In this document: positions 3,974-53,811 of the stretch, piece by piece
Numbering within the stretch: position 1 is the first letter of the stretch
How the letters are laid out: each line of letters starts with the position of its first letter
Assembly: GCA_947172415.1 (NCBI GenBank)
Contig: OX359202.1
Location: 2,048,501 to 2,112,500 of the forward strand
Reading direction: 5' to 3'
Length of the DNA stretch: 64,000 nt
Source of the DNA: Chondrosia reniformis
Taxonomy: Eukaryota; Porifera; Demospongiae; Chondrillida; Chondrillidae
Program-made: the position numbers and the translations under genes
Notes under the pieces: generated by a model
Told to the model about the DNA's origin: nothing
The model's database searches: none
The model's input: the letters and a program-made list of their open reading frames with translations, nothing else

Positions 3974-6900
3974 TTACACCTTATCTAGATTAGGGGTAGG
4001 TGAAAATGCCAACTTGAATGTGAAAGCACGGCCGTCTACAACAGGAAGGAAAGAAAACAACTTGTCTACTAGATCCATACATACCTACACAACAACTCAG
4101 CTCTCAGCAGTTGACAGAACTAGTCTACTCACCTGTAACATGTAGTGTTTTGTGGTTGACAAGGACAAATGCATCCAGAGCAGTCTCTATTGTTCCCCAT
4201 TCCAAAAGTCCAGTGGAACTCTTACCACCCTGACTTATGAACTTGATAGTAACAGGTAGAGGAGCAGACGATTCTGAAAATATAGTATTTATTGTTTCAT
4301 CGGTTGCATCAGGTGGAGCATTGTAGAAGTGAAGTATCTTGGTAGGGCCAATGATTCGGTTCTTACTAGTACCTTCTACAGTCAGAAACCTGTAGAATAA
4401 TGAATTAAACAGTAGACAGCTACATACATGACATATGTGCGTATATGAAGTAATAGTTAAAGACTATGTCAACAGGACATCTCTTGAGCCTACATGTACG
4501 CATAGTTAAATATACAGACCTGTTATTTCTAGACTGAGAAAAGTCCTTCCAGCAAGGGCTTCCATCTGGAAGCAACTCTACAGTCTGCCCATGATCTGCT
4601 ATAAAGTCATGCTTGGACAACCTACATATATCAACATGTTGCAATATATACAATATAGCCGAGAGAGGTAATAAAACCATGCCAAGTATATATAGGGGTT
4701 AGGGAGTCCAATGAGTATGCTGACTTGTGGACAACTATTCTCTTAATGAATTGCAAGACCTAAAATCCTTACAAGAAATATAAAGTAGAATTGGTTATTC
4801 AGTAAAGGGTTTAAAAACTCACGCTAACTCAAGTTCAGTCCCAAAGAGTACACATTTTGATAGAAATTGGATGGCATTCTTTACGGCAGTAGGATTATCC
4901 AAGTGGACCATTGCTGTACCTTTCTTGTTGACCAAGATCTTCACCTTCAGTACATTGCCATAGGAACAAAAGAGATTAAAGAGACCATCGCAGTTGACAT
5001 TCTTGTCCAGTCCGTACACCATCACTACAGAACCAGGGATGGCTGGAGAGGGGCCAGGGTTCATGGCTGGGACAGGTACTCCAGGGATCCCTCCTGGGGG
5101 ACCATGTGGACCACCTGTACACACAACAAGTCAACAATACATAAACGTACATCATAAAAATTTATGATTAATCAGAAAAACTTCAGCATGGATAATACAA
5201 TAGTAAGAAACAGCAAAACAAGAGTGCACAAATGTACATACGTACATCCCTATATACCCTTCTCATTAGTGCTATTGGCTTTCTTAGCTTCCATCCCTAT
5301 ATACCCTTCTCATTTGTGCTATTGGCTTTCTTAGCTTCCATCCCTATATACCCTTCTCATTTGTGCTATTGGCTTTCTTAGCTTACATCCCTATATACCC
5401 TTCTCATTTGTGCTATTGGCTTTCTTAGCTTACATCCCTATATACCCTTCTCATTTGTGCTATTGGCTTTCTTAGCTTCCATCCCTATATACCCTTCTCA
5501 TTTGTGCTATTGGCTTTCTTAGCTTCCATCCCTATATACCCTTCTCATGTGTGCTATTGGCTTTCTTAGCTTCCATCCCTATATACCCTTCTCATTTGTG
5601 CTATTGGCTTTCTTAGCTTCCATCCCTATATACCCTTCTCATTTGTGCTATTGGCTTTCTTAGCTTCCATCCCTATATACCCTTCTCATTTGTGCTATTG
5701 GCTTTCTTAGCTTCCATCCCTATATACCCTTCTCATTTGTGCTATTGGCTTTCTTAGCTTCCATCCCTATATACCCTTCTCATTTGTGCTATTGGCTTTC
5801 TTAGCTTCCATCCCTATATACCCTTCTCATTTGTGCTATTGGCTTTCTTAGCTTCCATCCCTATATACCCTTCTCATGTGTGCTATTGGCTTTCTTAGCT
5901 TCCATCCCCATATACCCTTCTCATTTGTGCTATTGGCTTTCTTAGCTTCCATCCCTATATACCCTTCTCATTTGTGCTATTGGCTTTCTTAGCTTCCATC
6001 CCTATATACCCTTCTCATTTGTGCTATTGGCTTTCTTAGCTTCCATCCCTATATACCCTTCTCATTTGTGCTATTGGCTTTCTTAGCTTCCATCCCTATA
6101 TACCCTTCTCATTTGTGCTATTGGCTTTCTTAGCTTCCATCCCTATATACCCTTCTCATTTGTGCTATTGGCTTTCTTAGCTTCCATCCCTATATACCCT
6201 TCTCATTTGTGCTATTGGCTTTCTTAGCTTCCATCCCTATATACCCTTCTCATTTGTGCTATTGGCTTTCTTAGCTTACATCCCTATATACCCTTCTCAT
6301 TTGTGCTATTGGCTTTCTTAGCTTCCATCCCTATATACCCTTCTCATTTGTGCTATTGGCTTTCTTAGCTTCCATCCCTATATACCCTTCTCATTTGTGC
6401 TATTGGCTTTCTTAGCTTCCATCCCTATATACCCTTCTCATTTGTGCTATTGGCTTTCTTAGCTTCCATCCCTATATACCCTTCTCATTTGTGCTATTGG
6501 CTTTCTTAGCTTCCATCCCTATATACCCTTCTCATTTGTGCTATTGGCTTTCTTAGCTTATTGGCAGTATTCAGTTGCACCATAGATTCAAGTTATTACT
6601 TCTTTTACACTTTGGCTACTATATTTAGCTATTATAGTGGCTAGGTGCACTGCTACAGTTAGGCTAAAGGCATCTAAGATGTATGCCTTAGTATATAAAT
6701 AATATATGATTAACAAACGTGCTGATAAAGAGAATAATTAAATTTCTACAGTTTGATTAGGTTCTAGGAAAGTATGTCTAAGTTGAAAGTGCCCATACCA
6801 TATTGAGGTGGTCCTTGAGGCTGGCCATATGATTCTCTGTAACCTTGCTGGTAACCCTGTTGATAATGAGGTTGGTAGTTCATAGCTGCCTGAGGCATTG

Positions 6901-9900
6901 GTTGTGGTCGCATTCCACCCATCCTTTGGCCTGTAGAAGGAACAGAAACACATTCATCATAATGAACCACAGTTCAAGAGGAAATTGTAATCAGAAATAC
7001 ACAAATAATGATAATGCGATAGGTAGCCTGTTTTACAAATCTAGATAAGTTCTCCATTATCCATACAAGAGGTTCCTACTAGCCAAAGTCCTAGCAGGGT
7101 TGTTGAGGGGAGTACTACGCTGTATTTATTGCATTTCCAAGGATATACTCACTCCAATAAACAAAACATATGTACGTAGCTACATACGTACCTATCGGAC
7201 AACACATGACATGGAATTTCCTAGGAGTCTATATTCATGACTTATTTCTATTATATTCTTCATCTGTATAGACTTGACCCTGTAGACTCGGTTAATAGGC
7301 TATCTATTCATAGCAAATAATACATCATGATGATAGGAAGTGAACTTGCCTGAGTTAAGTACATCAATCTGTACTGCACTAGCCTATATGGAATGCATAG
7401 CCGTCTATATGGAATGCATAGCCGTCTATATTCCGTATAGGCTATTAGATCTCTACTAGATCTCTCAACAAACCCTGAGGTGCACAGTCTATTGTTTGAC
7501 CCCTTTCTTCAATATTCTCATAACTGGCACATTTGAAATCCTTTCTAATTCAAGGCAATATTTTATAGGCTGATGACATTAACACAGTCTACAACACTAG
7601 TTGAATATACGTATGTGGGCAATAGTAGGACCTACAAACCCTCCCTGTAAGTTGGTGAAATATGAAGATGCTAGCTAGAACGTTGACAGGGCAACACATA
7701 CACAACATAAGACTCACCTTGCAATGAAATATCATAGGTCATGTCATCATTCTTATTCACATTCACTTTCTGGGTCTAGGAATAAAAAATATTAAGAAAA
7801 ATTAGTAACGAATATTTACTTAGAAAACATAAATATGCCAGATGTTAGAACACAAATGTATGTACATTAAACACAATACAAAATTTCTAAAGAGGAATTT
7901 CATATGAAAAGGACCTCAATTCACATTTTTAAATCCCACTTTGAATTGTTGTACTAAATCACTTCAGTACACTTTTAACCCAAGAGAGTTTTCAAACCCA
8001 GAGGGAAGTAACCATTAACATACACCACAAAATAGGAATTGTCAAAGGCAAGAGACAGTTGACAGAAACTGCATCCTCATCCTAAGCTGTATAGGTTTAA
8101 GTTGTATAGGTATAATACGTAGGTCCAGGAAAATAGTCTGTTCTATTCGTATATTTCCTTGGCCTTGTATTCATCCTTTGTACAACAAATCCAAATACGG
8201 TACAAAATTGGATCCAATTGTGACCACGCATCATGTACAGGTCTTGGAAGAGTAACATCCTAAGACTGATGGATTCACAAAACCTGGCCAGTGCAAAAGC
8301 CAGTGAAAGGTTCCCATAGCAACAACTTATCTGTACCTCAGATCCAGATGCTCCAACCAACAACTTGTAACCTTTTACTGTCATTGTATTGAACTACTCA
8401 CAAGAACACATTTCATCTCACCTCCTGTTTTGAAATTACCATTCTTGAAATAATAATATAATACTTTATTTTTATTTTCATATTTCTGATGTTCATGAGG
8501 TAAAAACGATATACAGTGGACCTCACTTAATAGAATACACCAAGGACTGCTTAAAATTATTAGCTTAACCAAATTATTCCATTATCGAATTGTGTTATAC
8601 TGTGAGCTTTATGTGTTAAACGTTTTGTGCTAATCAGTCTACATAGATGTTAAAACTATAACAAGTTTTTAGCGCAATCAATTAAACGAAAAGACCTTTC
8701 TTGGAAGATAAATTAAACGTTATTGATTCTTCTTCTCCCTGCACACACTACCAAGTCCGTATTTCCATGCAATCACATGATCTGGTGCAAGTGCTACAAG
8801 GACACAGATCCAATTTCAGGATGATTAATTAGAGTAGCAACAATATTATTACAATAATAGTATAGATTCTTTGCCACTAGCGCTGTTACCTAGGAAACCA
8901 CTACACCCACGGGACAGGTATTCATATTTTCGAGAGGTATGTAGGCAGGTAGGTAACAGATCTAGACCCAAAGGAAATAGCCACGTTCAGTTGATCGTTT
9001 TTACCATGCCGACGTCTTATTGTGTTGCTGGTTGTACCAATTGTCATTGTAAAGATGCACGCCCTATCGCTTATATCAATTTTGGAATGACAGCAGTTGA
9101 AGGCAAAGATGGATGGCTGCCAGTCAATGAGTGAACATTGATGGATCAGCCTGGCAACTGTTTGCTGGAGATAGAGTTTGCTCCATCCATTTTGTCTCTG
9201 AAGAGAAGAACGACAACCCGACACACCCTGGATATGTTCCCACGCTGAATATGACAGGAGACGTATTCACAGCAGTGGTCAGTACAGCAACAGAACAATC
9301 TATCAGCTGAGTTGAACGACGTTCAGCTCGAGAAGATCACAAATGTTGTCAGTTTGAAGAAGAAACAGCACCAGTTGCCAACATCTCTGTCCTTAGAAGA
9401 ATTGTCTCTATTGAGCATTCTTATCCTTGTGTTGACTGCGAGTCCATCTGGGAACCTCCAACCAAAGTAGCTAAACGCAATGGGAATAGCTTCAGCCTCC
9501 CATCTCTTGAGTTGAAAAGCACAGGTTAGATATTTGGGTGTCTTTGTTTGCTTGCTGTTGTTGCAAGTGTACATGCACATGTATGGATGTATGATTAATT
9601 GTGCATGTAAATGAAGCAAGCACTTATCTTGATTTGTTATATGTGTCCATGTTGCCAGACAGACCCTTTAGCTATGAAGATCTGCAAGCCATGTTTACAT
9701 AGTGCAGACTACAGTTGTGACAAACTGTCCAGTAAGTCTAGGCATTGAACATATATAGTTAGGATTTCAAAAGAAAAAATGAAATTATCTCTTTTCAAAC
9801 ATGGTATCCTCTGCGCCTAATTTTAACAGCCAAAACGACCTTTGTAGGTACATGTGGTACAGTCCTCTAGTAGGACTCCTGCAGCTGTGCTAGGTCAGGT

Positions 9901-12900
9901 AGCTTGGCCATTTGCCCTGCCACGTTTTGGGCAGGTAGGGCATTGGCTTACCTTCCCAGGCATAAAGTAAAGTCTCTGGGAATGAAGCGTTCCCAGAACG
10001 ATCAGCTGTTAGCGTAGTTTCATGAACCAGGCTCTATCTGTTCGTGGCGGTCATTTAATTGTGACACCTGTCTGAATAAATAATTATAAATGTACTTGAC
10101 TGAGGGTGAGCCACTATAGTCATACCGGCACCCCTCATTTAGCTTTGCCCTACCACCCATTATGGAGCTGTTCCGGGCCTGAAAATGAACTGACATGCCA
10201 TAAAAGTTCCCCCGCCGAATTAGTTCCCCCGGGCCTAAAACGGCAGCATAGTGGCTGCCAAATCAGTTCCGCTTTGCCGAATTTGGCCCCCCGTTCATTT
10301 ATGCCATTAAAATTGGCGGGAACAGTAGAGGTGTGACGACTACACAAGACGTAATCGTCATTTCTTCAAACGAAATCGATTGCAAAGCCGAGATGAGCGA
10401 GGAGAACAGTGGAGATAGCGTTCTAGAGGACGAAATCCTAGAAGAAGTGATAAAGTATGTTGTTGCAGGCAGTAAAGGCAGCCAATACAAGTACCGGGCC
10501 TGAAGGATGGGACAAGAACATGAAGCGATCTGTTAGGAAGAGAGCGAACAGAGTAATAATGAGGGGAGTGGAAGTGATGTACAGGAAAAAGAACAAGGAA
10601 GCAGTTAGAATAATACAGAGTAGAGAAGAACAGTTGCGGATCTTGGAGATGTGTCATTCAGACCCTACATCTGGACACTTTGGGGTTAAGAAGACATTCA
10701 ACCGAGTGAGGGAGAGGTTCTACTGGAAAGGGATGCGCAAAGATGCAGAAGAACTGGTTTGTTTAGATACATTCTATGCGCATTTCCAGAATGTTTTTAA
10801 TGTTTGCTCTCATTTCCATATGTACGTATATAGGTGAGCAAGTGCAGGCACTGGCAGATGATGAACAAAAAAGTGAACATAGCTAGGCCAGAGCTCCATC
10901 CCATTCCTGTGAAGTCACCCTGGTATCATTTAGGAATTGACTTTATTGGCCCTTACTCACCCCCATCTGCCAGTGGTAACAAGTATGTTCTGACGGTGTC
11001 CGACTACTTTACCAAGTTTGTGTGGGTGAAAGCCCTTCCAACAAAGGAAGCAAGTGGTGTGGCACAGGCACTGCGAGAGGTAAGATTCATGCATTGTCTG
11101 TCTCTTTCGCTGCACTTCTCTGCAGTCATCAAAACATACACCACACAAAGTGATGTTTGGCCGGAAAGCAGTTCTGCCAGTTGATTTTAACAGTCAGGAC
11201 AGCTGTGACCCCGAAGAAGCCTTGAAGGCATATGATGAGGAACCCCTCCCAGACCCAGCAGACATTGAAGCATACTGGAATAAAGTGAATGTGAAGGTGA
11301 AGGTGGGGGGGGGCAAATTCGGTATAACAGAACATCCACCAAGCCTGTGAGGGGTATGGGGTGCAAAGATCCACATTGCAGAACAAGATATTAGGAAAGA
11401 GTAGCCTCAATACAAGAAGTGGATCTCACCGGTGGCTTTTATTTAACGTATTACAAACGTTTATATAAAGTATTACAAATATAACTATAAGAAAATCATC
11501 ATATTAGCATAAGGGTTATAAGGGGTTAGAGAATACAGAATTTTCTTTCAACTATTAAGAATCTATTTTAATGCCATTAGATGGTTTTTGAATGTAGCTA
11601 TAAAAGCCATTGAGTTGAAAAGGAAGAATCTCCTTTAAATATCTGGTACAGATGTGTGTGTAAATGGATAAACCTATAATACATACATCATGCTTGTCTT
11701 GTCGCATCTTTCTGAGTTCCAACATAAGCTCCTGATTGATATGTTTGCGTCTGTCACTTTCATTTCTGTACCAAAGATGCAACAGGTAACCCAAGAACAA
11801 TTTCACAAAACAGTAAGGAGTAAAGGCATGCATTTTAGAAGCAATGGAAGAGCTGATTACAAAACATCTTTTACAGCTGAAAGACTTCTGATGATAGAGA
11901 ATTGCTAAAAATTGAATGTTACATACAGATCAGCATGACTTTGGGTTTAGCTGCCCTTGAATAAGGAGGAGGAATGGAATTTATTTTTACCTCAAATCAC
12001 TAACTGTACTCTCACTATTCTAAAAGGAACACCCTCAGCTCACACTGAGGCACTGTCACATGTTTGTGCAAAAGCAAATAACCCTGAGGCAATCACCAAG
12101 TATTTTGATCTCTGCAACAAAAAAGAAAATGGCCTAAGAAACCGCCCAGCTCAGATTTTTAACTGTGATGAAAGTGGACTACCCCCCTGACACACAAGCC
12201 ACCAAGCGTAGTTGCACAGGTTAGGCAGAAGCATCCATATGCAATCACTAGCAGCAACAAAGCACAATTAGCTTGTGGAAGTGCAGCTGGTCACTACATC
12301 CCCCCAAGGGTAATATTTGACCATAAGTCTCTTAATCCAGACTGGGCAATTGGAGAAATGCCTGGCATATTTTATGGTCTATCTGATAGTGGCTGGGTGG
12401 ACACAGAGCTATTTGAAGAGTGGTTCAAAAGCCACTTTTCACACCATGCACCACCTGCCAGACCATTCCTCCTGCTGCTGGATGGTCACTCATCACATCA
12501 GCAGCCAGAGCTGGTACAGGTAGCTGCCTCTGAAACAGTGATTGTATTTCGTCTGCCTCCACATACTACTCATCTACTGCAGCCTCTTGACAACTGTGCA
12601 TGTGGCTCCCTCAAGAGACACTGGGGAGAAGAGTGCCATCACTTTTGCAGTGACAACCCTGAAAAGGTTGTAAATTGGTACAACTTCTCCAGGATTTTCA
12701 ATTCAGCCTGGATGTCAGTAAGTAACATCATAGCAAGCTTTTGGGTAACTGGAATCTCTTGAATAGGAGAGCTGTACTATCACAACTCCCAGGATCATCA
12801 AAAGATGCTGATGCTTCAACATTACCTTCCTGCTTCTTTACCATTTGTGCCTTTCCACACTCCTCAATGGCCAAGCCACTTAATGTCACCCAATTCTGTT

Positions 12901-15900
12901 TGTAATAATTGCAGTTGTAGGTAAGTGCTATATTTAATAGCGAATTAAGAGGTGAATAATATGCGCAGGTAATATTTGTGTTTTGTATTGAAACTCGCAA
13001 TTCAAAATATTACAAGCTAGCATTTAATACCCATCCATTAGGTGCCGGCCATGTTTTTGACGTCATCCAAGGCAGGGATGGCTTATGTGATGTAATTACG
13101 TTTCCAATCCCTCACTTTACTCTATCTATGATTATAAAAAGCAAAGATCAGTACCGAAAAAATAAAAATTCCATAGACTCAGAAGTTAAATTTTTCTTTA
13201 GTCATAAAACAAGGTGTATCTAATGAAATAATTTGCAAAGGAGTAACAAGAGAGTAACTATATATATATAATTCAGGAAAGCCTTAGCAACCAAATCTTA
13301 ACTTAAAAAGAAACTGCATACTATTTGCTAGTCATGCACATATTTATGTAGTTGATTTTTTGCAACTCAAATCTCTTCTGTCAACTTATAATGCTTACCC
13401 TAGCATACTCTATCTTCAGTGTACAACATCCCGCATATATGTCTGCACCATCAAGGTTCTGCTTGGCTCTGTTGGCGGACACATTACTGTCAAACTCAAC
13501 CAGAGCTTGGATACCATTCTTTTTGAAGATGGCAATTCTTTGAACCACACCATAGGGACTACTTATTGTATGAATAACATCCTGCATGAAATGAATATAA
13601 TAAATGTGTATGTACGCACATATATACGTATATGTAAATAATAATGTAAATCACAATATACGTACACTTGTGGACATACATCATATGTGACAATTGTTAT
13701 TTCTTTTACACATTCAAAAATCACTACAAGACTATTGAGTAAGTACTCTATAAATACATCATCTTAGTTAAAAGTAGCAATCATTTCCAATTCGCACCAT
13801 ATGACATGCACAAGACAGTAAACTTCAATTATTTCTCTGTTTTGGAACTAAAAGCCAGTTTAAAATAAGGTGAACAGTCACTGGAAATTATTACAGCCTT
13901 TGCACAGATTTAGTGTAATTAAGTTTTAAAGTTATCAAAGTGATAGTAACAGTATGCTTGATAGTAGCATACAGTCTATAATCCCTCAAAAACACAAAGT
14001 GCCCATTCCTTGAATCTTCCACTCCATAAAGGTCCACTTATCGCCTGATGATGGAATACATCAAAGGCACTGCCAGAGAAATAAATCATTTACTTCAGTC
14101 AGGCAGCAAATCATAAACACCCCTTACACCCTCTTGTTGGACTTTGAGCAGGAAACACCACCTCTTTTTTTAGTGAGTATACACTTGGGATATACTTTGT
14201 AGCTGCTGGATATAACATCCTGCTGATACTATATTGATAGGTCGTTTTGTGAAAATTGTACTATATATACGTATACGAATACAATATATGCATTCACCTT
14301 ATAAGATATTTTGTCATAAAAATAAAAAATGGTTCTACCATAAGGGACAAAATGAATGTAGCGGGTTTTGAGTGTTTAGATGCAACTGTGGCGATTTTAA
14401 AGGTACCATGATATGTTTTTGATATATTAAGCTAAACATTCACATCAGCGTCTCTTTAAATATAATTTTGCACATGCTAAAATATCAGTAAAGATTTTCC
14501 ACTAAAATATAAAAGGGTCCCCATAGCACTTAATATAACACAGTCCCTCCTCGAGGTAACTCACCACATTGATAGAATACATTGGTTTAAATATAGTGTA
14601 CAGGAGGATGTGGTTGGGTGGTGGTTCATCTGGCGGAGCTTGATTGGAGTCTGGAGCATACCCGTATGGAGACCTACCAGAAACACAAATCAACACTAGT
14701 AAAGTTGGATCTAAATGATTGTATCTAACCACTATGGGAAATCTAACGTTTGATTAGTACTTGTTTATCACTCAAGGTTAAACATGTGGTTCAATAGTTA
14801 GCTTATGGAAAAATAGTGTATTAAATAATCATTGCTGTTATAAATATATACTATACTGTCTGTTTGTTGAATATATTCGCATTAATATATTCTCCGTTAT
14901 CTCTTTCTCTATAAACGTATCATATTATACATATCATATATTTTGTAACCAACTGCATAAAAAAAACATCTTTCTATAAGGATCAAGCTAGAGGTGAGAT
15001 ATGTGTTGATTACACCAGCCCTAATAGCTAACAAATGTATGGCCATAAATTAACTAAGCACAAATTTTTTAGCCTAACACAGGATAATTAATTTCACTGG
15101 TAAAGGAAACATGTAGTAAGATTTGAGTAGCAAGCTAACACTCTCAAACAAGCAAATGGTGACGAGTTGAAAAACAAAGCCAAAAATGGTCTACCTATGG
15201 ACAAGGCTACCAAATTCTTGCAGATGATCACTGTTCAGTTTCAATTCAACCAACACAACTGCAGCTAGTGTAAATATGCATATAAGACTAATTGCATTAA
15301 TCAATATTACAGAGATTAATGATCTATGAAGCTGAAATTCATTATAATTATTTATTTCACAACATTCCCAAAAAGAGTGTGAAAGAGGAAGTGTATAAGA
15401 TGGTCAGTATTTTGTCAAAAGCTTGAAATATAGCTAATAAGTAAAATCCATGCTTCAATACCAGAGTACATCCCATGAATCTGCTACTGATACAGTTCTT
15501 AATCATTACTTGCAGAAAATTATGCATGCTTAAAAAAAGATCTTTACATGCAAATAAAAACTGGCATGTGTTAACCTTGTAATCTCCTGGCTTGTTGAAA
15601 AGTTGAAGAATACATGTCTGTCCATTAGATACAGTTGGTCATCTGCTGCAGTTCTGACGCAATTGATGGCATCTTCCAACCTCTCAAATTCGACAAGAGC
15701 TTGGCGCAACTTTGGCATCATTGTCAGGTAACTGCATACACACGGACAAATAGTTTAGTAAACTTCGCCGTAACTAACATCTAAATCCTGTTAGCATTTT
15801 AAATTTCATCAAAAAATTAAGGTGATCTAAATTAAGACGGCAATAGATAGTAGACAAACAAACAAACTAGGCCTGTACCTAATTTTTCCAAATCGTTGCA

Positions 15901-16117
15901 AAGAATCAATGAGCATTTGAAAGCTACAACCGTCCGGAACAGCTCTCGCGTGCACTACGCGAGAGACAGGTGCGTTATGAGGGTCCACGCTTGCCTTGGA
16001 CATTTGTTGCTCGATCTTTCTTCTCTTTGGATCACCTGTGTTATCCGAATACCACTGATTTTGCGCTTGAAGATCGTTTTGCGTACCGAACTGAATTAAG
16101 GCGTGCTTCTCCGCCAT
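3974..16117 (-). CDS. HNRNPL: hnRNP L-type RNA-binding protein, tandem copy A
   Basis: Ten exons: 15879-16117, 15576-15731, 14565-14673, 13399-13581, 7718-7775, 6799-6930, 4823-5114, 4520-4621, 4133-4389, 3974-4035. They total 1590 bases, 529 codons plus stop, with every junction GT-AG and in phase. Four RRM domains are visible: RRM1 (about residues 51-130, SRVVHARAVPDG then VEFERL), RRM2 (about 154-230, HILLYTIFKPMYSI, ending CCTLKIEYAR as in vertebrate hnRNP L), RRM3 (about 322-400, GSVVMVYGLD and NLFCSYGNVLKVKI) and RRM4 (about 440-525, TKILHFYNAPP). A Gln/Tyr/Gly/Pro-rich linker lies between RRM2 and RRM3. The hnRNP L/PTB family binds CA- or pyrimidine-rich RNA in the nucleus and controls splicing and 3'-end choice. 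The introns after exons 4 (5.6 kb) and 6 (1.7 kb) are swollen by dead elements and by a 47-bp array. The start is the ATG shared with copy B. Confidence 0.9.
5245..6557. repeat. 47-bp minisatellite, about 28 copies, in an intron of hnRNP L copy A
   Basis: A 47-bp unit repeats head to tail from 5245 to 6557 with very few changes (C/A at one position, T/G at another). It lies wholly in the intron between exons 6 and 7 of copy A. Copy B has no such array at the matching place (18254-18742). Read on the sense (minus) strand, each unit carries a CCAAT word and, about 20 bases later, a TATATAG word. Near-identity of units suggests recent expansion or homogenisation. Confidence 0.95.
7388..7441. repeat. 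Short direct plus inverted repeat
   Basis: A 21-bp word starting TATATGGAATGC is repeated twice in tandem, followed by an inverted partial copy (TATTCCGTATAGGC). It lies in an intron of hnRNP L copy A. No known element is recognised. Confidence 0.6.
8515..8560. mobile_element. Possible Tigger-type terminal repeat
   Basis: TACAGTGGACCTCACTTAAT resembles the ends of the MITEs at 349 and 32659 (TA then CAGTGGACC). The opposite end could not be found, so the extent is unknown. Confidence 0.35.
9006..9524 (+). pseudogene. THAP-domain gene relic
   Basis: The first frame opens MPTSYCVAGCTN, the hallmark start of THAP zinc-finger domains (M-P-x-x-C-x-x-x-G-C), and soon meets a stop. In another frame, about 9172-9240, comes CSIHFVSEEK, which is the CxxH part of the C2CH THAP zinc-binding set, followed by a proline/threonine stretch. 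A further open stretch (about 9310-9524, with RRIVSIEHSYPCVDC) ends at a plausible GT donor. THAP domains are sequence-specific DNA-binding modules found in host regulators and in P-element-like transposases; which of these it came from cannot be told. It sits inside intron 4 of hnRNP L copy A on the opposite strand. At least one frameshift separates the two zinc-ligand halves, so it is read as dead. Confidence 0.65.
10380..11405 (+). mobile_element. Gypsy-type integrase fossil (broken)
   Basis: A zinc-binding integrase region (about 10600-10760, with CHSDPTSGHFGVKKT), the beginning of an integrase catalytic core (about 10900-11080, with GIDFIGPYSPP) and a C-terminal integrase part (about 11150-11300, with MFGRKAVLPVDF) lie in order on the plus strand. 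The family is Ty3/gypsy or the related gypsy-integrase (GIN/Ginger) group. No LTRs, gag, protease or reverse transcriptase were found nearby. The copy is incomplete, has several breaks and looks old. It lies in intron 4 of hnRNP L copy A, opposite to the host gene. Confidence 0.75.
11940..12770 (+). mobile_element. Tigger/pogo transposase relic (DDE_1 domain)
   Basis: The plus strand carries most of a DDE_1 catalytic domain: PAQIFNCDESGL (first Asp, about 12147-12180), then GWVDTELFEEWF, LLLLDGHSSH (second Asp, about 12470-12500) and LPPHTTHLLQPLDNC (third Asp region, about 12555-12600). The order and wording match pogo/Tigger and jerky-type transposases, which cut and paste at TA. A frame slip close to 12185 and the lack of an N-terminal DNA-binding part show the copy is dead. 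Ends were not found. It is nested in intron 4 of hnRNP L copy A next to the integrase fossil. Confidence 0.8.
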
Positions 16118-16281
16118 ATTTTAGGGTCCACACACCACGTGAGTAGACACGCGGGATTGAGGTAAAAATGCGTCACGATAAGTCAAAATGTACCGCGGTT
16201 ATTTAGAAAAAAAAAACAAAGGGTACTGTCTCGTAATTGTTGTAAACACAAAGCTAGATACATCATAGTCTAGACCATATA
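16118..16281 (-). promoter_or_regulatory. Promoter interval of hnRNP L copy A
   Basis: Only 164 bp separate the copy A start codon from the stop codon of copy B, so the copy A promoter must lie here or inside copy B. A CACGTG E-box occurs at 16136-16141, about 20 bp upstream of the ATG, and a matching one precedes copy B. The start codon context on the minus strand is AATATGGCGGAG, close to the YY1/TISU consensus. Confidence 0.5.
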
Positions 16282-19200
16282 TTAGGGGGCTTTGTCAATA
16301 GTAGGAGTTGGAGAAAAAGCCAACTTGAAGGTAAAAGCACGGCCATCTACAAAAAACAGATAATAGAATAATATCAATAGCAAGTATATGACCTTACAAA
16401 CCTAACAAAACAGTAATTACAGTCAACCAAGGTACAAACTTAAGAGCTATGGTAAATTGCAGGGCATTTACAGGTCTAACTACACCAAGTACACAAGAAA
16501 GAATGTGTATTCACTAGTGTAATCACTACGTATATGTAGTACAAATAAATATTCACACTAGAAAAACCCTAATAACTGTAACTCTTATCTAAACTCAATA
16601 AATAAAAGAAACAAACTTTCAACATGTAGTGTTTTGTGGTTGACAAGGACAAATGCATCCAGAGCAGTCTCTATTGTTCCCCATTCCAAAAGTCCAGTGG
16701 AGCTCTTACCACCCTGACTTATGAACTTGATAGTAACAGGAAGAGGAGCAGACGATTCTGAAAATATAGTATTTAGTGTTTCATCTGTTGCATCAGGTGG
16801 AGCATTGTAGAAGTGAAGTATCTTGGTAGGGCCAATGATTCGGTTCTTACTAGTACCTTCTACAGTCAGAAACCTGTAGAATAATGAATTAAACACTAGA
16901 CAGCTACATACATGACATATGTGCATATATGAAGTAATAGTTAAAGACTATGTCAACAGGACATCTCTTGAGCCTACATGTACGCATAGTTAAATATACA
17001 GACCTGTTATTTCTAGACTGAGAAAAGTCCTTCCAGCAAGGGCTTCCATCCGGAAGCAACTCTACAGTCTGCCCATGATCTGCTATAAAGTCATGCTTGG
17101 ACAACCTACATATATCAACATGTTGCAATACAATATAGCAGAGAGAGGCCATATAGCGTTCATATATAAATACATACAAATTCAAAAACTTATGGGTATG
17201 CATGTACATACACAAAGGTAATATGGCATCTTCAATTGAAAAGCTTAGCAATCGTATAATTACAACAGAGAAATTACATAACTTTGATGTAAACCTATAT
17301 ATACATACGTAGATAAGATGAGATATACGTATATGCTGAAGGGTTGTTAGTAGAGAATGCATTTCTGGAATATCCATGTGGAGAGCCCAATAAAAGCGAC
17401 TTTGTATTACTCGTAGTGACACGATATCAGGCAATCTGATTGGCCAGAACGTTAGTGTGCTGCAGTACCGAGCATTTCAATTAAAGATGACAGACTACTT
17501 CAGTTATAGATTAGCAATAAAATGGCCACTTTATCCTTAGTTAAGTTTGTAGAAATTCAATTGGCATTCTGTTAAATGTAAAAGTCAAAATAAAAATTAA
17601 CCTTAAAAATGGGATATGAAGTACATATGTAGAACAATTCCTATATAAAATATTCTAAGAGTACCATATAGCTGGAAATATTGGTGGGGAATTTGCTTTA
17701 GTGAATTGCTGATTTCACACAAATCATGATCCGCCAATATTATTGCATCATAGTGACATAATCCACTGTGACATGGGTAACCACCAAAAACTAAAACAGC
17801 CAATATATAAATCAGTCCAAAATTGCCAAATATTCTTCCCGCCAATATTTCCGGCTATACGGTAACTGAGACTAGTTAGATTATCCAAGGCATCTATTAT
17901 GGGAGTTTCAATGTAGCAATAATACTCACGCTATTAACAGTAATATGGTAATAATACTTACGCTAACTCAAGCTCAGTCTCAAAGAGAACACATTTTGAT
18001 AGAAATTGGATGGCATTCTTTGCTGCTGTAGGATTATCCAAGTGGACCATTGCTGTACCTTTCTTGTTGACCAAGATCTTCACCTTCAGTACATTGCCAT
18101 AGGAACAGAAGAGATTAAAGAGGCCATCACAGTTGACATTCTTGTCCAGTCCGTACACCATCACTACAGAACCAGGGATGGCTGGAGAGGGGCCAGGGTT
18201 CATGGCTGGGACAGGTACTCCAGGGATCCCTCCTGGGGGACCATGTGGACCACCTGTACACACAACAAGTATATATTGCACGTTTATCAGTAATCAGAAA
18301 AAGTTTCAACATGTATAGACGTTTATAAGTTAACATACAACCAAATAATTTACATTCATGTACATATACTATACAGGGCTGCATAGAGAAGTCCCCCATC
18401 CCCCTAGACTTTTGGGAACCCTCTAAACTGCTACGACACCCTCATACCATTGCCTCCTCCCACTAAATTTGAACATTTTCACCCACCCCCCCCCCCCTCC
18501 CCCAGCCCCAAGTTCTGCATGCATCCCTGGTATACATACATACGTACATATGAGTGCAAAGGTAGCATATGTATTATGTGAACGATAAAGTAAGAAGCTA
18601 TAGAAAGTAGACACAACAATGAATTGGTACATAGGGTCCTCGGCACAAAAATAAATTACTGGGTTGCTTCACTACAAACAAGGATAGACTGGTATACATG
18701 GAGTACTATATACTGCAGCCTCTGGCTGAAATATACACATACCAAATTGAGGTGGGCCTTGTGGCGGTTGAAATGGTTCTCTATATCCTTGCTGAAAGCC
18801 TTGAATGGCAGGAACGGGTGGATAACCAATGGCTGCATGTGGAATTGGTTGATTTCTCATACCGCCCATTCTGGGGTCTATATGCACGTACGTATGCACT
18901 GAGATATATAACAGACATTTACTAACATATAAGTAATTACATATTTACATTACAGACACAAATAAAAACTGATGTCAGCAGTCCGTCAAAAGAGGGTTAA
19001 AATTTATTAATCAAACACAGTCTTCAGAAGCATTCATGATTATGCTGTCATTTAAATGGCAGTGGAGGAAGTGTAATACTGTCAGCTCTCATCAATAACT
19101 GGAGTAGCCGTAGCCAGTTGATTGGGTGGAGGCTTGGAGTACTGAGCTGGGAAGGGAACACTTGGCTGTTGTACGTTCATCTGGATCATTTGAGGGTTAA

Positions 19201-22200
19201 ACGGAACTGATTGGGCTGCAACCTGTTGATTCATAACTGTTGCGTTTAAGGGGACTGGATTCATGCCATAATATCCTCCATAGCCACCCATAACTGCCCC
19301 CATACTCCAACCTTGAGTCCAAGAGGTGGGCAGGTTTCCAGGTCCTATTTGTCCAACTAAACCAGCACTGCTTCCAGATTGCTGCCACCTTGGATCTGAA
19401 TATTTCGACATTGCATGTAAGAGAGCACAAGGGAAGGTGCCAAAGTTAATATATATTTCACACTGTGAGAAATGTTGGTACATCCTACTGCCAGTCTTGT
19501 TGCATGTAGACTCATGCAGTATGTACAAATGTACTGCAGGTGCATGTACTGTGTCACAGTATGCCTTGTTGCATGGCGCTGAACAGACTAGTCAGACTCA
19601 GAGTGGATGCAGTTCTTATGCAATACGGCAACTCTATTGCTGTTTGAAAAAAGCAGTAACTGCCAAAGCTTTGTGCTTCATTAAATACAAATGGAAGTTA
19701 CGCATGGCACAACATACAGAGTGCACACAGAAATGACATACAGGAATGTCGTACGTACGTATTTGGGAAGGAGAACTAACCTTGCAATGCCATGTCATAT
19801 GTCATATCATCATTTTTAACAACATTCACCTTCTGTGTCTAAAAAAGGAAAAGTGTCTCCTTAAATACTAACTGAATATTACTGGTGTACATGCATACAC
19901 ATACATACGTACACATACGTACATACCACTCACATTTATCTACGAAAAAGGAGAACATTTGATAAATACGATATTAACCATGTACTGTATAAACGGAAAT
20001 AATCTATACATTTGAATTTGAACTTTTTAACGTACTTTGAGCTACTTCAAAAAGACTTAGAGTTACATACTTCAAAGCAGCTTGAAAAAAAATAGATGAA
20101 ACTTTAAACACTTAAATCAACAGTAGAAGCTTCACAGGTGACAACTAGTATGAGCGTAACATTCAATTAAATAAAAGGTGTCGTTGAATGGTGTTAATTT
20201 GAGTGTATGCATCAACTTCAATCGACCTTCAAATAAACTTTGAATCACTTCGATCTAGCTTCACACTACTTTAGTGGTATAAAAAATTACACCAACATTT
20301 CAAAGGCTTAGTTTAGGAACAAAAACATGTTTACTTCATTAACCAGTCATGCCTGACCAATCATACGTACCTTCACTGGCAATCCTTGTAAGTACACAAA
20401 TAAACAATTGCACTAAATGGTTGTGATTGAGCAATATACTCAACAATGAGCATCAGAGTTCGTGGTCAAACATTTCAATCTTGTGGATCTTCTTCAGTCA
20501 CCGAAGAAGATCCACATCTATGTTTGACCATGAACTCAAGAAAAACAACCAACTGCATCTCCAAATGCTCTTCAAGCCTGGGGTCCAACCCTTATCATAA
20601 TTTGGATGCAGTACAAAGAAATCCCATTAATGAGTATCAGTAAATAATTACAGTTGATAAAGAGCTACGTAAATATGTGATTGAAACATCCTGTAAGTGC
20701 TTATTGATTATTTCTATCTATTTGATCAATAACGTATGACAATTTAGTGCAATTTTCAAGCTTCTAAGGTATCAATACCAATACAATGCAGTACGTACAT
20801 ATCCATAGTACACTGCCATTTGACAAAGAAGCCAATGCCTACTAGTCAGGCACGTACGTATTTATGTAGTTGATTTTTTGCAACTCAAATCTCTTCTGTC
20901 AACTTATAATGCTTACCCTAGCATACTCTATCTTCAGTGTACAACATCCCGCATATATGTCTGCACCATCAAGGTTCTGCTTGGCTCTGTTGGCGGACAC
21001 ATTACTGTCAAACTCAACCAGAGCTTGGATACCATTCTTTTTGAAGATGGCAATTCTTTGAACCACACCATAGGGACTACTTATTGTATGAATAACATCC
21101 TGTATGAAATGAGTATAATAAATGTGTATACATATGTATATACGTATGTATGTGTATCAATATGTTATCAATGTTATCAATTATGTAAATCACAATATAC
21201 ACTTGTGTACATCATACATAGGTGCATGTAATAAGGGAAACCCCCTGTATGTTCCCATGCCAACCTCTAAGGCAAACAACCCCTGTATGTATGGGTGCAA
21301 AAGTCAGATTTACGTAACTGTATCTGATCAGTGGCAGCACTTTCAGTGGTAAGTATGTATGTATATACGTACAGTACATAGGAACGTGATAATTCAAAGA
21401 TACCGTAGTTCTATAAATGTATGTGTGGTATTTAATTATGCTATATATGCGAGTGACTAATATGAGCGCATAATTTAATTTCGCACTTGATATAACCGCG
21501 CAAAAAACAAATTCTTACCTCTGTTAAGGTGTTAAAAAGATGATCATTTAAGAACGATTCACGATGGCACTCCTAAAGTATTTTAAGACCACGCTACCGA
21601 CTGCAAAAGAGACAGGAATCGGCGAGAAAGCTACGAAGGAAGCGAATGCTGCCGTATAACGATTGACAAGTCCACAAAGAGAAAATCGTAAACGGAAGGC
21701 TTATACAGCCTTCAGCGATGAACAGAGAGCTACTATTGGTCAGTATGCTGCTGAAAACAGCAATGCTGCAGCAATCTTTCAAATCGCATAATTAAAAAAA
21801 GTATATTAAATTTTAGAATGGTCCAAAAATGCCAAAATCGCATAATTTAATACCCATATAAATTAATAGAACTACGGTACACGTACATATACGTATGTAT
21901 ACACGTAAAAAAATGTACGTATATTTAGGAACATTCAGAACACACGTACATACATGCCTATACGGCAAGAAAGCCCTACAGATCAATTAGGGCCACTGGG
22001 GAATCTAATTAATATGTTGCCATATTATCACAATTTTATTGTGCTACAAATACACCAACCTTGCATACACTGAAAGATTAGTGAGCACTTTCCACTAAAA
22101 TATAAAAGGGTCTCCATAGCACTTAATATAACACAGTCCCTCCTCGAGGTAACTCACCACATTGATAGTATACATTGGTTTAAATATAGTGTACAGGAGG

Positions 22201-24017
22201 ATGTGGTTGGGTGGTGGTTCATCTGGCGGAGCTTGATTGGAGTCTGGAGCATACCCGTATGGAGACCTAGCAGAAACACAAATGAATAAATATGTACATA
22301 AATCAGCGAGGAATGTACAACATCAAACAACAACTATATTTACAACAATAAATTAGCAGGAGAAGCAATGACCTAAAATTAGTATACACCTACGTAATTA
22401 CTGTATCTTTGTATTACACTTACAGCTTTGATTAGCTGAACAAATTGGAAATCATATGTGCATAAAATATACTGTATTAGAATCTATGGTATTAGCTACA
22501 GATGTTGGTGCAGGTAGGTTAAGTACATACGTAGGAAAAAAATGTTGGCTTTGATTTGGTAATAACGTTTTAGTTAAATTCTTAAACTGAAGAGCATTCT
22601 GGCTATTGAAGCAAACAAGAACTGATCCACAAATGTGCATAAGAGTGCTCTGTTTGTAAATATACACATAAACGTGCAACACTGCCTAAAAACAACAGTG
22701 GCAGATACTCTAACAATAGATCAGTTGCACGGTACATTATATAAGAAACGTTTTCAACACAGGTTGAAACCTTTATTAACCTCCTACACTTAACTGTTGG
22801 TAAGAGAAAAGTGCTGGAAGCGGGAGTCCTAGAAAGGCAATGGGGTATGAAGCAAGTGAAGGAGATTATCAGGCTATTGTGTCATTTGCAGAGAGAACTG
22901 CAGACATCAACACATGAACCCAATTGAGAATCTACGTATTACATACGCATTACTGCTAAATTTAGATATTATACCCAACCACGTATGTCTCCTGAGGAGC
23001 GCAGGTATCAACCACTCCCCATGCTGTAGCTTTCCCATTGGGGTTGAATAAATGGGAGTTAATTGCACTGAGCCGTGCAAAGGCTATGATGATAAGCAAA
23101 AATCATCACTGGATAGTATTACGCCAAACTTACTAATACTTTCCAGTGATGGATTTTACCCACTGGGGTAATTCAATTAAATGCTTAAATGATATTGTTA
23201 AGTATCAACAGCATAATAAAGTACACACACCAAGCTACGTACATTCACATGTACATATGTATACCTATTGCACAACACTACTCCATTATATAACACATGT
23301 ACATACGTACGAATACCTATTGCACAACATTGCTACATTTCATAACACATATGCATCTGTACAAACCTCGTAATCTCCTGACTAGTTGAATAATTAAAGA
23401 AAATTGGTCTCTCTTTAATGTAGAACTGGTTACTTGCTGCCATCTGAACACATTTCTGGGCATCTTCAAGTCGCTCAAACTCAACCAAAGACTGCCGTAA
23501 TCTTGGCATCATTGTAATATAACTAGACATTAAATTAAATACGTATAAACACAAACCAAATTAGAGTGTAATACAATGACGTATGGTATTGCCATTAAAA
23601 TGACCAAGCCACATTAGAGTGGAGTTTTAGTGGAATTACAATTACTACAATCTAACGTAACTGACATCACGCTATTAGAAATGGTAGAAAATTGCTGAGA
23701 AATACCATCATCATCACATGCCGCTCCACGCAGCAAACTAGCCGGACAGACTATGAAAAGGTAATATTAATTGAATACCTAATTTTGCCAAATTGCTTTA
23801 AGACGTCGAGGAGCATTTGAAAGGTGCAGCCATCTGGAACAGCCCTTGCGTGCACTACGCGAGAGACGGGTGCGTTATGAGGATCTACACTTGCTTTCGA
23901 CATCTTCTGATCGATCTTTCTTCTCTTTGGATCACCTGTGTTATCCGAATACCACTGATTTTGCGCTTGGGGATCGTTTTGCGTACCAAACTGATTTAAG
24001 GCGTGCTTCTCCGCCAT
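16282..24017 (-). CDS. HNRNPL: hnRNP L-type RNA-binding protein, tandem copy B (long isoform)
   Basis: Ten exons: 23779-24017, 23367-23522, 22158-22266, 20917-21099, 19781-19838, 18743-18877, 17962-18253, 17004-17105, 16617-16873, 16282-16346. They total 1596 bases, 531 codons plus stop, all in phase, with the same phases and nearly the same lengths as copy A. Four RRMs are in the same places, and the RRM2-RRM3 linker is Gln/Pro/Gly-rich (QGFQQGYREPFQPPQGPP). Expected role: nuclear CA-rich RNA binding and splicing control. Exons 3, 4, 7, 8 and 9 and parts of their flanking introns are nearly identical to copy A, while exons 2 and 6 differ in many residues. The donor after exon 9 (GTTTGT at 16616) is weaker than its copy A partner. 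The gene starts 70 bp from LSM1 on the other strand. Confidence 0.9.
19082..19395 (-). CDS. HNRNPL: Alternative terminal exon of hnRNP L copy B (two-RRM isoform)
   Basis: An acceptor AG directly before 19395 opens an exon that continues the split Gly/Asp codon left by exon 5 (19781-19838) and runs 314 bases to a TGA at 19082-19084. Joined to exons 1-5 it gives 1059 bases, 352 codons plus stop. It encodes a low-complexity tail rich in Gln, Pro, Asn, Gly and Tyr (for example GGYGGYYGMNP) and starts DPRW; the alternative exon 6 (18743-18877) starts DPRM in the same phase. Use of this exon would give a protein with RRM1 and RRM2 only. No equivalent is visible in copy A between 6931 and 7717. Splicing to it is inference from phase and open reading frame; transcript data would decide. 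Confidence 0.7.
20456..20537. repeat. 82-bp near-perfect hairpin
   Basis: The outer arms GAGTTCGTGGTCAAACAT and ATGTTTGACCATGAACTC pair almost fully, and the inner arms TGTGGATCTTCTTC and GAAGAAGATCCACA pair perfectly around a 7-base loop. It lies in intron 4 of hnRNP L copy B. A degenerate copy of the inner motif occurs near 41236, so it may be a foldback transposon family; a small-RNA precursor is the alternative. Confidence 0.8.
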
Positions 24018-24087
24018 ATTTTAGGGGTTAAACCACGTGAGCGCCCTCTAATTGCGCATGCGTAGTAACAGGTGAGGCTAGTAAAGT
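24018..24087. promoter_or_regulatory. 70-bp bidirectional promoter between hnRNP L copy B and LSM1
   Basis: The two start codons face away from each other 70 bp apart. The interval holds a CACGTG E-box (24034-24039) and TGCGCATGCG (24053-24062), a good match to the NRF1 consensus known from animal promoters of growth-related genes. The hnRNP L start is embedded in AATATGGCGGAG, a YY1/TISU-like context typical of very short 5' leaders. Factor binding is inferred from motif only. Confidence 0.7.
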
Positions 24088-27000
24088 ATGGCCTCCATCG
24101 ATGATCAATCAAATTCGGTGCATTCGTATCTTCCTGGTTCAGCTAGTCTTATAGAGGACTTAGATAGTAAGAGAATGAATTTTGTATCGTAATAGCACAC
24201 AAGACTCATTGTGAGCTAGAAAAGTTATCGACAGAAAATTCTTTAGTAGAACCATAGACTATATAAACTACGTAGTTTGTATAGTCTATGGTAGAACGTT
24301 TCGACCCGAGGGTCTTCATATATATGCATATTAGCTGATAAGACCCACGGGTTGTTGACCTTTCTAGCTCATCATGATCACAACAAATACTCCCTATAAC
24401 TTCAATACTCATTGTTTACATACAGTATCTACCAGGTAAAAGCTAGGTATTGAATACTGTAGGCGTTAATCCAATATCCGTATACCTACTTACCTATCCA
24501 TTGAATATGGCTGGTTCATTGCCTTCCCTTCACTGCAGAGAAGGTACTAGCAGTCCTCAGGGATGGCCGAACCCTCATTGGATATCTCAGATCTATAGAC
24601 CAGTTTGGTAAGTAGAGCGGCACAGCCTTGAAGTCACTGGTGGAACTACATCAACCTTGTACATTTTGGGTACATTTAACATGACCTTTACCACTCAATA
24701 ACAAAGCCCATTATGTGAGATTTATGGGATGTTTCAAATGTTACCATTTATAGTAGAGTCACTTAATGTGGTCTAATCGTAAATGGCTCCATGTGTGTGC
24801 AACATTAGTATTTTCTGATATGCATGCTGTTTGTTCAAAGCATTCGGCTGTCAAAGGAATTGTTTTTTTTTTCTAGTCTCACATATATTTAGTGTATGAT
24901 GCATATGTATGTACGTACATGGAAAGTCAGCTAAAAGGCTGACATGCTTATACCATAGCAGTCACCGTGTCTTGGTTTAGTAACAAATGCTGTTCTCTCT
25001 GTATGCATAGCAAACCTCTTACTGCAAGATTGTATAGAGAGGATTCATGTGGGAAAGGAGTATGGAGATATTCCCAGAGGAATATTCATTGTACGAGGTG
25101 AAAACTTAGTTCTTTTAGGAGAAATAGTGAGTTTTAAAGTAGTACAAGTTGTATATCTGTCATTTTTCTACAATAAGCTCCTTTTTTATACAAGAATAAT
25201 ATCTTTTGTCTACACTTACCACTATATTAGTTATTTAGGATTACCATTAGAATGTACCTTTAAATTAGTATGAATCGAATTAATATAGTATCGAAAATTT
25301 GGCGCCATACGGTATAACGATTTTATCTATTGTCATCCATTTGCACATGGCACATGCCCTCTTCATAAAGTAGATGGTAAGGTTTATTCGCCATGTATTC
25401 ATTGCTTAGGTGACATGGATGTGGCAAGATTATTTCCATTTAAATAAATGTGCATTTGCACTGTTTATTTCCATTGAGACACAGTTTCGTCTCCTTCTGC
25501 CAAAGCATCTAGCCTACCAATCTGATAAAGATACCTTTAGAAGTGATCGAAATTGTAATCGAATTGTTAAAATTGACCAACTTAAAGGTGATTCCAGCTG
25601 CCTGAATGATCGTACTTCAAGGGCACCCACAGCGTATACACAGAATACACCTTGTATACCAATTTTACCAGAGGGGTTAGAAAATGAAAATTATTCCTGT
25701 GGGCACCCTTGTACTTGATCGTAGTAGTTAAGGGATACGGGTGTGTACACTATTTTTGTTTATACAGCAACGTAAATGCAAAAATGTTGGTTGTAGGACT
25801 AACATCTATACTAAATAGTTGAAAATCATTGGTACTTCCGACAAAACACTGATCATTAATAGGAGTTTTCCCGCAACTACGTACCTTATTACACATATAA
25901 ACATGTTATTTACTTCCGTTGCCAAACCTGTTAGGAGAGGTTAGTTTATCCATGCTTTTACCATGTGATTATTATATGCATAGGTACGTAAAAGCTAATC
26001 ACATTTTACTATTTGCTAAATTGTATGACATGCATTTCACAGTATCTTCTTGACATCGATATTCTCATTATATTAGTTGATAACAGATGTTTAGAAACCT
26101 TTTAGTTTTGTGTAAGCTGTGAGTAACCTCATGAATGGATGAATGGCATAATAGGAGCGCGTGTGATCTTTTGGCTTCTTTGGGCCATTTCACTAAAAAC
26201 TGTAACTGTGAATCTCTGGTACAATACTTGAAGATGAGTACAATTTAAACTGTGAAAACATGTTGATTTAAAACAAATACGCACACCTAGCAGCTATTGC
26301 AAGGGTATACGCATACGTGCATTCCCCTAACCTATGCATATTCCACAAGGTAGTGGTAGTCTGTTGATTCTTCTAAAGCAATGGCTTATCCAGGTAAACT
26401 ACTACTACTTTGACCAAAGAATAATTCTGGCAATCATGGTTCTGTTTTGTTCAATCTTTACTGAGGAGCTATTCTTACAGAGGTATCAGTCATTTTTTCT
26501 ATTGAATGCTGTAATATCCTTTCTCTTAGAAAAAACTGTTAAGGCCAAGTTAGATAGATTACTTTTTTATCGTCCGACAGTGATCATGAGATAGGGGAAG
26601 GAGATCCAATTTTAATTTTATTTTTTACTTTTTCTTATTGGTCCATGCACGTCATGTGAAACTCAAATACATAGGTATACATTTATTCAAATTTCACTCA
26701 AGTACAGAGTTGATTGTCAGATACAACAATGTACCTACATGTTTGTGCATAATTATGCATGTACCAAAGACAGCAAAGAAATACAGGCAGGTGTGTACAG
26801 GTAGAAACTGAGTACATATATATACCAATAAATTTATTAATCTAAAATGCAGACAGTGAACAGTACATGTGGAAAAGGGTGAAAGACAAATATACAAGTG
26901 TCTAGTATAAGGATTCCACATCGATTATTTCTTAAGTCCAGGTGTGAAGGAACATGTACACTTTTGAACTTTCTCCTTTCCGGCACACAAAGCGCATAGT

Positions 27001-46300: not shown

Positions 46301-46556
46301 GGATGGGGCAGTAAGACAGACAAGGGTAAGAAAAGCAGGGGAGAGGATATGGGACAGGCGATTCCAGCTATGAAAATGAACAGGGGAAGAGTTATTAGGA
46401 TGTTTAATGACAGAAACGGAAATGTGAATTCTTTTGTTTTTGTTTTTTCTTTTTTTTACGGTTTTGGTCTTGTACAGTGCAATACGGGGCAAGTTGCCCT
46501 AGTGTGGAGCACACACACAATGCACTTAAAAGTTTAATAATAATAATAATATATTT
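43394..46556 (+). mobile_element. 5'-truncated LINE (non-LTR retrotransposon), frameshifted
   Basis: The plus strand encodes, in order, the C-terminal half of an apurinic-type endonuclease (VICGDFNARCGD, about 43436; VVDYCILP, about 43640; DHSLLMW, about 43758), a linker, and a reverse transcriptase (KLRKKAAPGKDSLTAEMI; AFVDFSKAYDRVD, about 44907; GLRQGCVLSPLLFSLYIN; GLLYADDMILLA, about 45200, with the YADD catalytic motif). The C-terminal region has a Cys/His cluster (CTICCDGEIEDAEHLILRC, about 46177-46233). A TAA repeat tail ends at about 46556. The frame changes near 43550, 44170, 44270, 44750 and 45370, so the copy is inactive. Family is an I/Jockey- or L1-like clade judged by the TAA tail and architecture; the 5' part including the first half of the endonuclease is missing. 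Confidence 0.85.
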
Positions 46557-53700: not shown

Positions 53701-53811
53701 CTGCTTTGGAATCCTTTGGCATATCAGGATTCCCATGCAGCTCATTCCCAGCTCTCAACTCAAGGTAGGAGGACAACCTCCTTTGGAGCTACAACTTTGG
53801 CCATTCACATT
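47703..53811. repeat. 6.1-kb satellite of 88-bp and 104-bp monomers with higher-order repeats
   Basis: An 88-bp monomer (start points 49443, 49531, 49619; 50642, 50730, 50818) is interspersed with a roughly 104-bp variant that inserts a GCATATTA and CTAGCTCATT segment. Blocks recur at an offset of 1023 bp (49619 and 50642; 49795 and 50818) and at 1120 bp (51561 and 52681), so the array has higher-order structure. Each 88-bp monomer contains two perfect short hairpins, AGGAGG-ACGA-CCTCCT and GGAATCC-TTCA-GGATTCC. The 88-bp monomers lack stops on the plus strand in all frames, so many spurious reading frames appear; because 88 is not a multiple of three the frame rotates every unit. Confidence 0.95.

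Follow-up and report, generated by a model that had tools for sequence, protein, structure and literature searches.

Patchwork identity in a head-to-tail hnRNP L gene pair of the sponge Chondrosia reniformis points to gene conversion centred on exons

Gene models and islands of identity

The window analysed here, a stretch of 64,000 nucleotides from contig OX359202.1 of the sponge Chondrosia reniformis (C14:2048501-2112500), carries two hnRNP L genes, copies A and B; the genome searched comprised 117,379,552 bases in 15 contigs. Both genes are on the minus strand in head-to-tail order, copy B (24017-16282, 531 amino acids) being followed by copy A (16117-3974, 529 amino acids) after only 164 bp (16118-16281, copy B stop to copy A start codon). 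Each gene model has splice sites and an open frame across 10 exons, located at 16117-15879, 15731-15576, 14673-14565, 13581-13399, 7775-7718, 6930-6799, 5114-4823, 4621-4520, 4389-4133 and 4035-3974 in copy A and at 24017-23779, 23522-23367, 22266-22158, 21099-20917, 19838-19781, 18877-18743, 18253-17962, 17105-17004, 16873-16617 and 16346-16282 in copy B. The exon phases match between the copies, and the exon lengths are equal except for a 3-base difference in each of exons 6 and 10. A first-pass annotation of this DNA had recognised two complete hnRNP L copies with shared exon phases, and its outer limits, 3974 and 24017, coincide exactly with the copy A stop and the copy B start. A CACGTG box and the string CTAAAATATGGCGG occur upstream of the start codon in both copies.

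As judged from their sequences, both copies belong to the hnRNP L family, with four RRMs and hnRNP L as the closest named relative. A Pfam search of copy A returned RRM families, and its PDB matches were hnRNP L over residues 45-133, 147-246 and 318-522 (RRM3-4). Vertebrate hnRNP L and hnRNP L-like gave the best structure-database matches over RRM1, RRM2 and RRM3-4; to our knowledge, these two vertebrate genes are not adjacent tandem copies, unlike the sponge pair. Binding to CA-rich RNA is a feature of the family. RRM1 is encoded by the 3' half of exon 1 together with exon 2, RRM2 by exons 3-4 with exon 5, the central linker by exons 5-6 and RRM3-4 by exons 7-10.

When the window was compared with itself by BLAST (word size 11, E 1e-4), four islands of high identity between the copies emerged, of approximately 195, 305, 320 and 530 bp, all on the minus strand. 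The exon 3 island (A 14496-14690, B 22089-22283) was 98.5% identical and continued over 69 bp of intron 3, in which a single base mismatched. The exon 4 island (A 13328-13631, B 20842-21147) was 95.8% identical with gaps; the 61 codons of exon 4 showed no difference, the first 58 bp of intron 4 were identical between the copies, and 30 bp upstream of the exon were alike with two mismatches. These results agree with the earlier description of exon 4 with its flanking intron, and of exon 3 with about 70 bp of intron, as nearly identical. The remaining islands covered exon 7 (A 4812-5131, B 17949-18270; 96.3%) and the segment from exon 8 through intron 8 to exon 9 (A 4137-4668, B 16621-17148; 97.7%). 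Intron 8 lay wholly inside the latter and differed at 2 of 130 sites. The near identity described earlier for exons 7-9 and for the intron between exons 8 and 9 was confirmed with some corrections: in this 3' half, intron 8 and short intron margins belonged to islands and intron 7 did not, exon 7 was uneven, and the last island ended within exon 9, 4 bases short of its donor.

Outside these islands, the same search gave 86.6, 82.1 and 86.3% identity for exons 1, 5 and 10, respectively, and no match for exons 2 and 6. In the introns ahead of exons 2, 5, 6 and 10, the first mismatch stood 3, 4, 3 and 7 bases from the splice site, respectively, with mismatching beyond. The interiors of introns 3 and 7, which lie between islands, also had no self-BLAST match between the copies. 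Therefore, the islands are separate tracts rather than one long recent block. Additionally, alignment and codon segmentation marked a weak and perhaps older patch (A 16013-16126, B 23913-24026, minus strand), comprising 9 bp 5' of the ATG and codons 1-35 of exon 1.

Homology past the island edges was scored against first-order Markov shuffles (300 for each edge). Residual homology was found past three of the eight edges (0/300, 0/300 and 1/300 shuffles as good), although simple motifs that recur in this sequence, such as TACGTA, could inflate it at these edges. It is consistent with an older duplication beneath the islands, from which residual homology of this kind would be expected. All four 3' island edges were sharp, whereas three of the four 5' edges faded, a difference among four islands only that may be due to chance.

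Silent divergence along the coding sequences

The number of silent differences per silent site varied strongly among exons: 22/48.5 in exon 1 (0.45), 26.7/31.0 in exon 2 (0.86), 0/25.0 in exon 3 (0), 0/39.7 in exon 4 (0), 7/10.0 in exon 5 (0.70), 19/27.8 in exon 6 (0.68), 7/72.0 in exon 7 (0.10), 1/20.0 in exon 8 (0.05), 3/62.5 in exon 9 (0.05) and 11/14.7 in exon 10 (0.75). When pooled, these amounted to 0/64.7 for exons 3 and 4, 11/154.5 for exons 7-9 and 85.7/132 for exons 1, 2, 5, 6 and 10. The observed heterogeneity among exons was reached in none of 20,000 codon permutations, and the longest clean run was likewise reached in none of 20,000. Even silent divergence across exons, which the first-pass annotation had named as grounds for abandoning its proposal of gene conversion, was not found, as exons 3 and 4 (0/64.7) and exon 2 (26.7/31.0) lie at opposite extremes. 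Its list of diverged exons (2, 5 and 6) was also correct, with silent differences of 0.86, 0.70 and 0.68 per site, but lacked exon 10, which has diverged as well. In copy A, the diverged RRM1 exon (exon 2) occupies 15576-15731, and the exons of the linker between RRM2 and RRM3 (exons 5-6), diverged at silent sites from those of copy B, lie within 6799-7775, both on the minus strand.

Likelihood-based segmentation of the aligned coding sequences (529 codons), with a Bayesian information criterion penalty, chose six alternating blocks: codons 1-35 (low), 36-131 (high), 132-229 (without silent change), 230-288 (high), 289-508 (low) and 509-529 (high), with silent differences of 0.10, 0.78, 0, 0.74, 0.07 and 0.72, respectively. 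Exon 1 was thereby split, with 2 differences in 19.2 silent sites over codons 1-35 and 20 in 29.3 over the remainder. The unevenness within exon 7 was smaller (2/37.0 silent sites in the first 46 codons, 5/35.0 in the rest).

Amino-acid-changing differences numbered 6 in 722.8 sites of exons 3, 4 and 7-9 and 65.3 in 513.0 sites of the other exons. In these high-divergence exons, the amino-acid-changing rate (0.127 per site) was well below the silent rate (0.649), and both copies therefore look selected as proteins.

Probable gene conversion and its alternatives

Taken together, these results suggest, with a probability that we put at about 0.9, that a four-RRM hnRNP L gene underwent an old head-to-tail duplication and that interlocus gene conversion, probably repeated, has since homogenised four exon-centred islands. 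The gene conversion proposed in the first-pass annotation is thus supported by the alternating blocks of silent divergence and by the intron identity within the islands. In addition, the alignments show where the tracts end. The homogenised parts would be exon 3, exon 4, exon 7 and exons 8-9, that is, RRM2 and most of RRM3-4, whereas RRM1, the linker between RRM2 and RRM3, exon 10 and the bulk of the intron sequence would have escaped conversion and diverged until silent sites were nearly saturated. When one copy suffers a break or a stalled fork, it might be repaired by copying a few hundred bases from its neighbour, and such repair would take place only where a sufficiently long near-identical stretch survives. 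The islands would then be located on exons and become smaller as the introns are eroded by indels and repeats. Conversion may have been ongoing since the duplication, each round keeping the surviving stretches alike. According to a review, conversion operates mainly above 80% identity, with a low rate also below it, and one experimental series is cited for approximately 200 bp as the shortest efficient length (PMC3924818).

At least two exchanges are likely, and there were probably more. Exons 3 and 4 look younger than exons 7-9: at the silent rate of the latter, zero differences in the former would have a chance of approximately 0.9%, in a comparison whose groups were chosen after seeing the data. 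The 5' part of exon 1 is perhaps a fifth low-divergence patch, either older or partly constrained.

Two further candidates were examined and rejected. GC-biased conversion has left no visible mark, third-position GC being 0.41 in the island exons of both copies and 0.44 (A) and 0.40 (B) in the other exons. A third copy or a dispersed donor is also not indicated, as a genome search with the exon 4 island gave two matches and all 18 full-protein matches fall within the two genes described here.

Several observations weigh against gene conversion. The clustering tests were permutations of our own design rather than GENECONV, and past five of the eight island edges nothing was detectable (101 to 265 of 300 shuffles as good). 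Plain homologous repair alone does not predict such abrupt ends, which include all four 3' edges. The four amino acid changes within the islands give no direction of conversion: polarised by vertebrate hnRNP L, copy B was derived in three (S/T in exon 3, V/A and G/E in exon 7), the I/L change in exon 9 was unreadable, and hnRNP L-like has a third residue at the exon 3 site. One scan each of viral and genome contig databases yielded no sponge orthologue, so that the sign of paralogues being closer than orthologues is missing; the viral contigs gave no match, and the sole genome-contig match, at 32% identity, was a contig of a bacterial metagenome-assembled genome (MAG). Of the 33 tandem pairs in a survey described below, hnRNP L included, 25 fell short of even the weaker cut for patchiness. 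Finally, the domain most strongly homogenised, RRM2, also shows the highest conservation relative to vertebrates (60/99).

This last point is what would be expected if purifying selection on RNA or DNA signals, such as splicing enhancers and autoregulatory elements, had frozen exons 3, 4 and 7-9 together with their intron edges in the absence of conversion. Two pieces of background speak for such constraint: vertebrates have regulated exons flanked by conserved intron edges, and mammalian hnRNP L autoregulates its splicing. However, all 64.7 silent sites of exons 3-4 would have to be frozen beside near-saturated neighbouring exons, intron 8 (2/130) is no more different than the silent sites of exons 8-9 (4/82.5), and no Rfam family reached its gathering score within the window. 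An intron as similar as the exons that it joins, while other introns have diverged, points away from constraint. The comparison with vertebrate hnRNP L adds to this for RRM3-4, which in copy A is no better conserved (89/198, 45%) than RRM1 (44/87, 51%), yet is far more alike between the copies (188/191, 98%) than RRM1 (66/87, 76%). RRM3-4 has therefore been at least as free as RRM1 in its long-term evolution. Given that RRM2 (96/99 between the copies) is better conserved than RRM1, this argument is unusable for RRM2, for which the silent sites and intron edges carry the case. We thus regard constraint as a very unlikely explanation.

An assembly artefact, in which alleles or haplotypes were misjoined or one copy was polished with reads of the other, seems even less probable. 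In its favour, curation of the assembly removed four haplotypic duplications, and k-mer completeness was 69.43% for the primary and 93.73% for the combined assembly, indicating that the haplotypes differ (PMC12181767). Nevertheless, the unconverted exons are near silent saturation, the introns between islands have no BLAST match, the islands are not 100% identical, and the window contains no N. The assembly is reported to rest on 10.31 Gb of HiFi data from 0.80 million reads, approximately 70-fold, with a quality value of 69.8 (PMC12181767). By arithmetic on this yield and read count, the reads average approximately 12.9 kb, against islands of at most approximately 530 bp. Judged from the assembly, the near-saturated exons and the short islands relative to long HiFi reads speak against the collapsed and misjoined alleles that the first-pass annotation had also considered. 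Reciprocal unequal crossing-over, or a partial recent re-duplication, could in turn have made chimaeric copies: the copies are direct repeats, between which unequal exchange is possible, and a single genome cannot separate reciprocal from non-reciprocal exchange. Six alternating coding blocks and the unmatched introns 3 and 7 would, however, require many closely spaced exchanges without net change in copy number, and just two copies were found in the genome. This origin is accordingly improbable, to much the same degree as constraint.

Whether the pattern was shaped by selection acting on conversion domain by domain is a more speculative matter. RRM2 and RRM3-4 could have been kept interchangeable while RRM1 and the linker were shielded and specialised, giving proteins with a shared RNA-binding core and a differing choice of partners or targets, and the P450 pair and other patchy pairs described below could then mark exon-anchored conversion as a common force in a compact genome. 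We consider this extended proposal rather doubtful, although less so than the alternatives above.

Related systems, other tandem pairs and further features of the window

Exon-restricted conversion itself has already been published, and the hnRNP L pair is a further case, in a sponge. Among the systems compared, the closest parallels come from the copepod Tigriopus californicus, in which GOT1S (GOT1Sd/GOT1Sr) shows exon-restricted conversion beside an intron too diverged to align and GOT1p1/GOT1p2 form a mosaic of high and low divergence (PMC3728101). Whereas that work covered four populations and used GENECONV, the sponge case concerns one genome and another gene family, with silent sites outside the islands close to saturated. 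In human BMP8A/B, DDX19A/B and TUBG1/2, old gene pairs described as showing long-lasting concerted evolution, particular segments have similarly been homogenised; the authors used intron similarity to exclude purifying selection and speculated that binding domains are kept alike (PMC2720389). There the pattern was shown across mammals, while the sponge pair comes from one species. The L/M opsin genes of gibbons and other catarrhines are also neighbours with conversion over part of the gene, but in the opposite arrangement (PMC3213168): introns are mostly converted and central exons kept different by selection, whereas in the sponge the exons and their edges are homogenised and the introns diverged. 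Among the literature matches listed for sponges and gene conversion, covered by titles and abstract openings, there was no study of conversion between sponge gene pairs. The pair offers a clear sponge case, in which some modules of a splicing-factor relative are homogenised and others diverge. For such a pair, trees or ages based on the whole coding sequence would mislead, as exons 3-4 look recent and exon 2 saturated.

To place the pair in its genomic context, we refer to a survey of 33 tandem pairs, including hnRNP L, which were chosen by eye from family match lists, are not mutually independent and leave out many clusters of those lists, kinases above all. The strict cut combined a segment with at most 0.06 silent difference (at least 20 silent sites) and a segment with at least 0.5 (at least 15 sites), and the weaker cut was 0.3; these cuts were set after seeing the data, and the segments were translated stretches rather than curated exons, some of them intronic. 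The strict cut was passed by 2 of the 33 pairs, hnRNP L and a P450 pair on C9, and the weaker cut by six more; three pairs gave no protein match. The P450 pair (matches at C9:4820646-4821807 and 4825459-4827263, in the stretch C9:4818500-4829500) has two neighbouring exons that fall within BLAST matches at 95 and 97% identity, and the intron edges beside them are identical over approximately 6 to 33 bp. The intron between these exons is of unequal length in the two genes and is hard to align, some similarity remaining beside one exon. Five other segments had silent differences of 0.50-0.79, and the value of 0.26 for the segment over the second island exon arises because this segment extends beyond the exon. 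Exon-anchored conversion therefore recurs in this genome, although the unpatchy pairs counted above weigh against its generality. If the pattern is common here, conversion could be measured in this genome from existing long-read data. On C8, two tandem RRM genes share 701 bp at 98.4% identity, intron included, beside 384 bp at 74.5%.

The bacterial match mentioned above, JAIRUS010000099.1, is filed as a Streptococcaceae MAG; the matching stretch corresponds to part of hnRNP L exons 3-4 and possibly reflects eukaryotic contamination of the bin. Copy B has a candidate alternative last exon between exons 5 and 6 (19082-19395, minus strand), which is open and phase-compatible and encodes 104 amino acids up to a TGA stop, with an AATAAA nearby at 19008. 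The predicted product would contain RRM1-2 only. Nothing significantly similar to this exon was found in the rest of the window, including copy A, and a genome search gave one match.

Repeats and traces of mobile elements also occur in the window. Copy A intron 6 contains a minisatellite (5245-6559) in which a 47-bp unit is present in 28 copies that match at 99%, and copy A intron 4 contains a fragment of a DDE superfamily endonuclease (PF03184; 12172-12762, plus strand), as of a DNA transposon. Outside the genes, a satellite array of approximately 5.7 kb (48064-53716) has nested periods of 88, 192 and 280 bp, and a retroelement-like region (43441-46373, plus strand) comprises a reverse transcriptase frame (PF00078; 44711-45373) and neighbouring long frames. 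Short near-perfect palindromes at approximately 20456-20540, in copy B intron 4, and at 24252-24291 are possibly small inverted-repeat elements.

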